This document shows positions 11,633 through 54,251 of a DNA stretch of 56,565 nt, piece by piece (position 1 is the stretch's first letter; every line of letters begins with the position of its first letter). The stretch spans positions 1 to 56,565 of the forward strand of contig NZ_JAOZPV010000002.1 of the NCBI RefSeq assembly GCF_029932565.1. Direction: 5' to 3'. Below the pieces are notes generated by a model, which saw nothing but the letters and a program-made list of their open reading frames with translations, was not told the DNA's origin and did not search any database. Source of the DNA: Hydrogenimonas sp. (GTDB lineage: Bacteria > Campylobacterota > Campylobacteria > Campylobacterales > Hydrogenimonadaceae). Position numbers and translations under genes: made by a program.

Positions 11633-11739
11633 TAACTCTCTTCTTTTCTCCAGTAACCGAAATTTCAAAAGTTTTTGGATAAAATCTATCCACTATAAAA
11701 ACTGCGTAACATCAGTTTATCAAAACAAGGTTATTTTCG

Positions 11740-28948: not shown

Positions 28949-29007
28949 GGAAGCGGCGCAGCCGCGTCCGAAATTCTTCATTCTTCACTTTCCATTCTTC
29001 ATTCGTA
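28949..29007 (+). repeat. Hairpin GGAAGCGGC-GCA-GCCGCGTCC followed by heptamers ATTCTTC ATTCTTC ACTTTCC ATTCTTC ATTCGTA
   Basis: 9-bp stem with one mismatch (28949-28969), then five 7-bp units (28973-29007). Confidence 0.8.
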
Positions 29008-29842
29008 GATAGGTGCCGTTCTCTTTGACCTCGATTTTTCCTGCCTCTATCAGCTTTGTCAGAGCGCGTTTGAAGTTTTTTCGGCTGAGTCCCAGCAACT
29101 CCTTGATGCGCTCCGGATCGCTTTTGTAATTGAGCGGCAGCATTCCGTTGTGGTCGTGCAGCCAGGCCATCACCTTGTCGGCGGCCAGATTGTCACTCTT
29201 TTTGCCGATGGGGCGGGTCAGGAGGTCGATTTTGCCGTCGTCGCGAACCTGCTTGACATAAGCAGTGACAGTGTCGCCAACGGCAAGGGGACCGAAGACC
29301 TCCGAATGGAAAATGAGCCCTTCGTAGCGCCGGTTCACCACCGCCTTGTAGCCGAGTTCCGTTTTGCCGAAGATGTAGGCGTCAACCGCCTCGTTCCGTT
29401 TCAGCGTTTTGGATGAGGCTTTGGCGAGCTGCCGGTCGAATTTCTGTGTACCTGCCAGCCTGTGACTCTTTTCGTCGTACGTCACCAGAATCGCGTGGCA
29501 TTCTCCTCTGTGCATCGGCTCTTTTTGGAGCATTCTGGGGACGAAGAGGTCTTTTGGCAATCCCCAGTCTACAAAGGCGCCATGGGGAGTGAGATCCACC
29601 ACTTCCATCTCGGCCACTTCGCCCAGCATCGCACGGGGACGCTCCGTCGTTGCGACGATTCTCTCTTCACTGTCGGTATAGAGGAAGACATCAAGTGTAT
29701 CTCCTATTTTCATCGTTTCCGTAACGTAACGCTTCGGAAGCAGGACCTCTTTCTCCTTTTCGCTTGCGAGAACGAGACCGTGTGGCGTTTCACGGACGAT
29801 TTTCAGACGATTGACGGTTCCAAGTTCCAGATATGCATTCAT
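28985..29842 (-). CDS. cvfB: S1-domain RNA-binding protein, CvfB family
   Basis: LGTVNRLKIVRETPHGLVLASEKEKEVLLPKRYV, VDLTPHGAFVDWGLPKDLFVP, FGPLAVGDTVTAYVKQVRDDGKIDLLTR, LLGLSRKNFKRALTKLIEAGKIEV. Confidence 0.85.
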   Translation of the reverse strand: MNAYLELGTVNRLKIVRETPHGLVLASEKEKEVLLPKRYVTETMKIGDTLDVFLYTDSEERIVATTERPRAMLGEVAEMEVVDLTPHGAFVDWGLPKDLFVPRMLQKEPMHRGECHAILVTYDEKSHRLAGTQKFDRQLAKASSKTLKRNEAVDAYIFGKTELGYKAVVNRRYEGLIFHSEVFGPLAVGDTVTAYVKQVRDDGKIDLLTRPIGKKSDNLAADKVMAWLHDHNGMLPLNYKSDPERIKELLGLSRKNFKRALTKLIEAGKIEVKENGTYLRMKNGK

Positions 29843-29865: not shown

Positions 29866-30146
29866 AGATGGGTTCTAGAACCTATCCCAACAATCCCCAT
29901 AGGCGGGAATGGCACGCAAAAAGTGCGATGGCGAGGCGAAAAGTGCAGGGTGTAGCCGAAGCTACATTCAAGCTTTTCAACGAAACCAGTGTGCTTTTTG
30001 CGTGCCACCCTTCGGGCAGCGTGTTTTTGTCCCGATTCGTCGTTGGTTCTCCCCGATGTGGCTTTGGCCACATCTTCGTCGTACCGCCTCGACCTGGAAC
30101 AAAATCATTGCTGTTACCACCTATAGGGATGTTTGAGATGGGTTCT
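29866..30146. mobile_element. Candidate non-autonomous inverted-repeat element (MITE-like) or structured RNA locus, core 29877-30146
   Basis: 27-bp imperfect TIRs (22/27 matches) at 29877-29903 and 30120-30146; internal 13-bp perfect inverted repeat GGCACGCAAAAAG (29911-29923) / CTTTTTGCGTGCC (29994-30006); nested GAAAAG/CTTTTC and TGTAGC-CGAA-GCTACA; further hairpin ATGTGGC-TTTG-GCCACAT (30056-30073); 11-bp direct repeat AGATGGGTTCT at 29866 and 30136. Confidence 0.6.
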
Positions 30147-30291: not shown

Positions 30292-30513
30292 ATGGAGCAG
30301 AACGGCAATGACAACGGCATGCGGAACGAGAAGAAAAAAAGAGAAAAGAGAGACGGAGCAGATGTAACGCTTGAAAAAGTGGAAGAGAGGATCCGGGCTC
30401 TTTATGCACGATACAGGGCCGGTGATATGAGCGAAAGCGAATATTTCGGAAATCTGAGTCGACTTGACGACCTGCTTCAGAAACTCGAGAAAAAGGAGGG
30501 CGATCAGGAGTGA
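30292..30513 (+). CDS. Small charged protein with SHOCT-like helical C-terminus
   Basis: ATG 30292 with AGAAGGAG upstream; VEERIRALYARYRAGDMSESEYFGNLSRLDDLLQKLEKK. Confidence 0.55.
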   Translation: MEQNGNDNGMRNEKKKREKRDGADVTLEKVEERIRALYARYRAGDMSESEYFGNLSRLDDLLQKLEKKEGDQE

Positions 30514-53929: not shown

Positions 53930-54251
53930 CTCACCTCCTTCAATAGAACCTCTCTCATTCCTTCCCCTGCCGTACCAGGCGCTATGCAAGCATCCCACTG
54001 TGTCAGGTGCTGCTTGAGACAGGTTTTCGCTCTCTTCCTTTATTGTGCCAAAAAAAAACATAAAAACGGGCCCGATACAGTCTGGAAGAGGGCAGTGGTG
54101 GAAATGTCGGCATTCCATAAGCTGATATTCTATTAAAAATTATAATAAACAATAATTTTGAAAATATTGATAAGAATTGATAAAATTAATTGAACATAAA
54201 GGTTTGAGAAGAGATAATGCAATTACAAAATTTTATAATAGGAGTGGTTAT

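Follow-up and report, generated by a model that had tools for sequence, protein, structure and literature searches.

The region upstream of cvfB in Hydrogenimonas sp. (Campylobacterota, draft genome) raises the question of whether its dense set of nested palindromes represents a mobile element, a structured RNA, or both. The palindromes lie within a stretch of 56,565 nucleotides, referred to here as the window. They are located 35 bp upstream of the start of cvfB (28985–29842, minus strand), and on their other side a small ORF begins at 30292 on the plus strand; an earlier note on this DNA had placed them between the cvfB start and a small gene. The note had proposed a MITE-like element or a large structured RNA, and the data presented here support both at once.

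All the features of the nested-palindrome layout that had been listed were found to be present, including the GAAAAG/CTTTTC pair and both hairpins. The element proper extends from 29877 to 30146 (270 bp) and is bounded by 27-bp terminal inverted repeats (TIRs), hereafter type A. The left repeat (29877–29903, plus strand, AGAACCTATCCCAACAATCCCCATAGG) was assigned from the sequence and the family consensus, and the right one (30120–30146, minus strand, reverse complement AGAACCCATCTCAAACATCCCTATAGG) from the sequence and a genome motif count; the two agree at 22 of 27 positions, as had been noted. Two hairpin modules, or arms, are enclosed. Arm 1 (29913–30002, sense strand plus), delimited by the covariance models R2 and R1 described below and by covariation, carries a conserved internal loop, with the 5′ side GAGGC at 29933–29937 (placed from alignment A4 and the distance to the element end) and the 3′ side CAACG at 29978–29982 (from A4). 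Its apical hairpin TGTAGC-CGAA-GCTACA (29951–29966), evident from sequence, fold and covariation, corresponds to helix 4 of A4, which is 94.6% paired, with changes on both sides in 8/8 pairs. A perfect 13-bp inverted repeat, GGCACGCAAAAAG / CTTTTTGCGTGCC, lies at 29911–29923 and 29994–30006. Arm 2 (30021–30110, sense strand minus) is an inverted second copy of the module, recognized by R2 and R1. On the minus strand, its internal loop was placed from sequence and loop position at 30086–30090 (5′ side, GAGGC) and 30041–30045 (3′ side, CAACG), and its apical hairpin ATGTGGC-TTTG-GCCACAT at 30056–30073 from sequence and fold. A central mini-hairpin, CCC-TTC-GGG (30008–30016), seen in both sequence and fold, separates the two arms. 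The RNA fold of the element reached −125.8 kcal/mol, compared with −86.1 ± 5.1 for dinucleotide shuffles (z = −7.8), and the whole element folds as a cloverleaf that brings both ends side by side.

The earlier note had drawn the element from 29866 to 30146. The 270-bp element is real; the left AGATGGGTTCT lies outside it. The 11-bp direct repeat AGATGGGTTCT is indeed present at both edges (29866–29876 and 30136–30146), and it is not a target-site duplication. Owing to its identity with 30136–30146, the segment 29866–29876 is most simply read as the probable right-end remnant of an earlier type-A copy whose border took this insertion, which would account for both the direct repeat and the junction GGTTCTAGAACC. 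A similar sequence, TTTTCAGTCGGGTTCC, is present in the relative G016, and no such sequence was found in G003, G008 or G015. Elsewhere in the window, convergent degenerate type-A-like ends (AGAACCTCTCTCAT ... TTGAGACAGGTTTT, two mismatches each) occur at 53945–54027. They may represent a decayed copy of 83 bp; the number of matches of this kind in the window does not clearly exceed chance. A lone type-B-like end (type B is described below), ACTGATGTTACGCAGTTTT, was also observed on the minus strand at 11698–11716; a plausible start codon follows 23 bp further on.

Mobility of the element, which the note had suggested checking, was borne out by multiple copies, conserved TIRs and empty orthologous places upstream of cvfB. 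A BLAST search of the Hydrogenimonas draft genome itself (1.86 Mb, 127 contigs) gave 62 matches, comprising about 11 near-full-length copies with 76–89% identity and many partial ones, and several contigs terminate within a copy. The end consensus AGAACCCATCTCAAANATC matched the genome 91 times at ≤3 mismatches, compared with 0 for a reversed-pattern control. Among 40 relatives, the element was detected by BLAST in 10, all of the genus Hydrogenimonas, and copy numbers vary widely among sister genomes. Upstream of cvfB, three relatives (L256, L258, L259) keep a block with the −10-like GATTATAGCGGA and lack the element; in L257, which also lacks the element, the block reads GATTATATCCGA. According to a crude ORF scan, about 17 of 43 copies have a start codon no more than 30 bp away. 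No reading frame was stop-free across all copies of type A or of type B; in many type-A copies, though not in type B, one frame on the minus strand stays open. Rearranged and armless copies also occur. One type-A copy (L010:1501–1769) contains ∼94 bp of arm 1 in the orientation opposite to that of the remaining element. Copies without recognizable arms include a 129-bp type-B copy and 49–50-bp palindromes of two directly joined type-A ends, the latter observed, together with lone type-A ends near contig starts, at L205, L210 and the starts of contigs C46 and C70 of the same genome (G000).

The type-A ends belong to an IS5-family transposase, the copies of which are flanked by TA. The family end consensus, AGAACCCATCTCAAAAATC, matches at 18 of 19 bases the ends of an IS5-family insertion sequence on Leptospira weilii plasmids. 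This IS (865 bp, L391:1502–2366) has a pair of overlapping ORFs with matches to PF13340, PF01609 and NCBIfam NF033580 and, judged by this pair, is IS427-like. It shares nearly the same ends and flanks with the type-A element and differs from it in its length and in carrying a transposase. A T directly before and an A directly after the element were found in 27 of 38 type-A copies, with no longer duplication, and the same flanks border the L. weilii IS; the window copy itself is flanked by TA / TG. This is consistent with TA as the type-A target, the duplication being read from the flanks only and not from a nucleotide-resolved empty site. Outside the phylum, exact type-A ends were found in Patescibacteria MAGs, Betaproteobacteria MAGs and one deltaproteobacterial MAG. 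A viral contig (L283) carries a partial transposase, 62.9% identical to that of the L. weilii IS, beside a related type-A end. Among viral contigs, 120 stretches resemble a degenerate type-A end, nearly all by chance; one is the end beside this IS5-like transposase fragment. One betaproteobacterial MAG, NC_groundwater_1277, contains a repeated ∼225-bp MITE with type-A-like ends (L119, L121, L124, L134, L143, L145 and L161). Its interior is wholly different, a long inverted repeat around CAGATGAACGCAGATAAACACTGATAA, so that the same ends enclose another cargo.

The transposase expected to act on these ends was sought within the genus. No PF13340 protein was found in the 18 genus genomes searched, from which we infer that the type-A mobilizer is today absent from the genus or unassembled. 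The type-A end pairs checked in the draft genome itself enclosed no transposase, and an 871-bp end pair on contig C43, considered as an autonomous partner, was rejected as it enclosed only host ORFs. A search of the IS loci L391 and L393 with R2 revealed no arm, and full elements had no match among phages and plasmids.

The same interior was found within several other kinds of ends. In the complete genome G007, the core lies within type-B ends (ACTGATGTTACGCAGTATA) in a 271-bp element of the same length; two occurrences of type B were found in the genome carrying the window as well. An exact 5-bp target duplication flanks 12 of 20 type-B copies. No transposase was found beside the lone type-B ends checked in the complete genomes G007, G002 and G016; type-B ends were absent from the viral contigs, and plasmids gave only 17-base chance matches. 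Of 11 copies with type-C ends (TAGACTTCTTGCAAAACT), 10 show an exact 3-bp duplication; a plasmid of Spiroplasma ixodetis carries an annotated IS5-family transposase between the same ends. Type-D and type-E ends read TAACTGACCTTACGCACC and AAGCACCTAGTCAAAAG, respectively. The target-site signature thus tracks the end type, i.e., TA flanks for A, 5 bp for B and 3 bp for C. Altogether, the two-armed element was found with at least ten different terminal repeats and a length of 256–284 bp, mostly 265–277 bp, and one-armed 166-bp elements were also recovered with R1. Two 327-bp type-B elements (L195:180–506 and L196:174–500) have the apical hairpin of arm 2 swapped for a different ∼60-bp palindrome, and the one at L195 retains an exact TTTTA duplication. 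The family is mobile, and the same module resides inside unrelated ends with different target duplications.

The reach of the module was followed with covariance models. R1 was built from alignment A3, which holds arm 1 of types A and B only; it recovers each element's arm 2 on the opposite strand, as well as new end types. The element therefore consists of a small hairpin flanked by two homologous arms in inverted orientation. For the window, R1 recovered arm 2 with an E-value of 5.6e-6. Across the phylum, R1 located arms in 12 of 298 genomes from several families, in elements of about 264–276 bp with yet other ends; one R1 match (L458:1501 onwards, genome G032) directly adjoins an apparently tRNA-like sequence. 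R2 was built from 28 arms representing all Campylobacterota end types and no Patescibacteria; its scores for the window arms (arm 1, 78.1 bits, E 1.2e-19; arm 2, E 5.9e-19) refer to sequences in its own training set. In Patescibacteria, R2 detected both arms at L125 (E 3.7e-10 and 6.1e-9) and at L123 (E 8.2e-8 and 5.7e-4), and one arm was detected at the deltaproteobacterial MAG locus L131 (E 4.6e-12). In the phylum of the patescibacterial genome G042, 13 of 380 genomes were matched, nearly all matches falling in TIR-bounded one- or two-armed elements, among which several new ends occur. The viral contigs and other loci searched, 325 kb in all, gave a single match, which lay within a Hydrogenimonas locus. 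The arms share an internal loop, with (A/G)AGGC on the 5′ side and (C/T)AACG on the 3′ side, which in most arms begins at a distance of 53–58 nt from the element end; the invariance of AGGC/AACG in A4 is partly imposed by the selection of arms for having the loop. Superfamily members carry one or two ∼90-nt modules, which in two-armed elements are inverted and placed at a near-fixed distance from the ends.

Covariation in the nested stems, the other check that the note had proposed, was found to be strong and to have strand polarity. Within type A alone (alignment A1), 35 of 98 pairs had changed on both sides, and the covariation score was 0.209 compared with 0.100 for shuffled alignments (0/500 shuffles) and 0.03–0.06 for slid structures, controls that in part ignore relatedness. 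Among the 28 arms of A4, the stems diverge and pairing is kept, 28 of 29 pairs having changed on both sides; the score of 0.763, compared with 0.240 shuffled and 0.14–0.26 slid, is subject to the same partial neglect of relatedness. A single copy in the genome, TIRs not conserved in relatives and stems that do not covary, which the note had named as evidence against its proposal, were all looked for, and none of them was found. Polarity was evaluated on arms chosen by position only (nt 31–130 counted from either end, taking the strand that places the arm 5′). With RNA energies, 76 of 82 arms had a more stable fold in the sense strand than in its reverse complement; with DNA energies, 80 of 82 did. 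The TIR stem, used as a control, showed no strand bias. G-U outnumbered A-C in the cells of A4 (98 vs 19; 51 vs 18 where the commonest pair is Watson-Crick), and G-U is itself the commonest pair at several positions. The strand test on whole elements gave no GU/AC bias because arms 1 and 2 are oppositely oriented, and the polarity emerged once the data were split by arm. The paired structure is maintained through compensatory change, with strand polarity. Owing to the polarity and the G-U excess, the arm is read as a single strand, each element strand having one sense arm near its 5′ end. This points to selection of the arm as a single-stranded fold; RNA seems more likely than ssDNA because G-U is frequent, the energies themselves not separating the two. 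The folded arms, rather than the ends, are the conserved part.

Known MITE families are usually defined by one end type linked to one IS. The present family shares many of the attributes of MITEs, i.e., 270 bp with 27-bp ends, dispersed copies, absence of a conserved coding frame, and ends common to autonomous IS elements (that of L. weilii and, for type C, that of Spiroplasma ixodetis). Target duplication is displayed by types B and C, and type A, to which the window copy belongs, has the T and A flanks only. A mobilizing transposase in the same genome, which also characterizes MITEs, was not found (PF13340 in the 18 genus genomes; end pairs checked). In type II prokaryotic MITEs, similarity to the IS is limited to the ends (PMC10969869). 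Like these, the family is short and multi-copy, with TIRs, IS-shared ends, a stable fold and no conserved open frame (PMC10969869); unlike them, it has one interior under at least ten different ends, across phyla. Caulobacter CIR consists of two inverted repeats forming two RNA arms and a linker, with GANTC at a loop, and is distinguished from repeats with pairing 5′ and 3′ ends (PMC2229807). Two RNA arms are common to both, and in this respect CIR is the nearest system, whereas here, judged by description, long pairing terminal repeats enclose them. Membership in CIR was rejected, again by description, as the loops are GNAA/TTTG-like and the conserved motif is the AAGGC/AACG internal loop. 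Coxiella QMITE2 is about 190 bp, with 23–29-bp ends, a fold of −113 kcal/mol, 7–9-bp duplications and a REP-like core that also occurs in other genera without full ends (PMC5896051). The small size, long ends, very stable fold and recurrence of the core elsewhere are similar; the duplications and the REP-like core are where QMITE2, compared by description only, differs. NEMIS/Correia (about 107–155 bp) and ERIC (127 bp) are likewise small elements with TIRs, and their RNA stem-loops influence adjacent transcripts (PMC2229807). They differ from the present family in sequence, size and architecture, and provide precedents for MITE hairpins acting in flanking mRNA. Affiliation with REP/BIME, in which single short palindromes lacking long terminal repeats go with an HUH Y1 transposase (RAYT), was rejected on the structure of the ends, given terminal repeats of 25–30 bp and target duplications. 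Integron attC, with its RYYYAAC / GTTRRRY core boxes, was rejected by eye on the arms, ATCTAAC being present in some type C and E arms only, with no partner box. Rfam gave no match at the gathering score in the window, and its best hit on six related loci was a miRNA precursor model (E 0.63). No description of these repeats was found in open-licence papers, and an earlier description elsewhere is possible; the note's failure to recognize a named family thus holds for Rfam and the papers searched.

Taken together, the element is a non-autonomous TIR transposon (MITE). It probably belongs to an undescribed superfamily in which the hairpin module is conserved and the ends can be exchanged. Among the other explanations, the most serious is that the module works as ssDNA, its hairpins on the lagging-strand template or at excision joining the ends or binding a protein and so aiding any transposase. 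This would account for the indifference to end type, the cloverleaf juxtaposes both element ends, and polarity and pairing hold under DNA parameters too; however, G-U, the commonest pair at several positions, forms more easily in RNA than in DNA, and some transposed-looking copies have no arms, so that we regard this explanation as rather unlikely. Long palindromes are prone to correction by template switching, and an ordinary MITE might hence keep functionless palindromes complementary during replication. The internal deletions and the inverted inner segment of L010 do attest to structural lability. Such correction would be strand-neutral, yet the observed polarity is strong, and it would erase mismatched loops, yet the internal loop persists at an unchanged distance in different end types and phyla, which makes this account quite improbable.

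We give about as little weight to independent convergence, by which unrelated IS families would each have yielded similar hairpin-rich MITEs. The ends and target duplications do differ, and helix sequences are largely unalike across end types, but a model trained on some end types recognizes others, and Patescibacteria as well, with low E-values, and both the length (most 265–277 bp, range 256–284) and the loop position are nearly identical. It is far less probable still that a host non-coding RNA gene or regulatory element has spread through recombination instead of transposition. Precise ends, 5-bp and 3-bp target duplications, ends common to autonomous IS elements and the very different copy numbers of sister genomes all weigh against it, even though the structure covaries strongly and the location is intergenic.

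For the preferred explanation, a MITE with exchangeable ends, the ends could serve as interchangeable adaptors for whichever DDE transposase is present, acting in trans. The module would work as a single strand, most likely RNA. In a transcript entering from a neighboring gene on either strand, the first arm met would fold as the sense hairpin, and such a hairpin may shield or process the read-in mRNA, whereby insertions just upstream of genes would be tolerated. More tentatively, and with rather less than even confidence, these elements may constitute a geneless structured RNA class shared by Campylobacterota, Patescibacteria and one deltaproteobacterium. It would spread under the terminal repeats of unrelated DDE transposases, and one correctly oriented hairpin near each end would allow it to fold in either direction of transcription.

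Bacterial MITEs are generally regarded as wrecks of single insertion sequences. In this family, it is the interior that is conserved and not the ends; this holds over phyla, end types and target duplications, and the covariation is strand-specific. This provides a testable argument that a single-stranded function is under selection in some MITEs and that they can switch transposase partners, and a covariance model would allow the annotation of a widespread, unlabelled repeat class in Campylobacterota and Patescibacteria.
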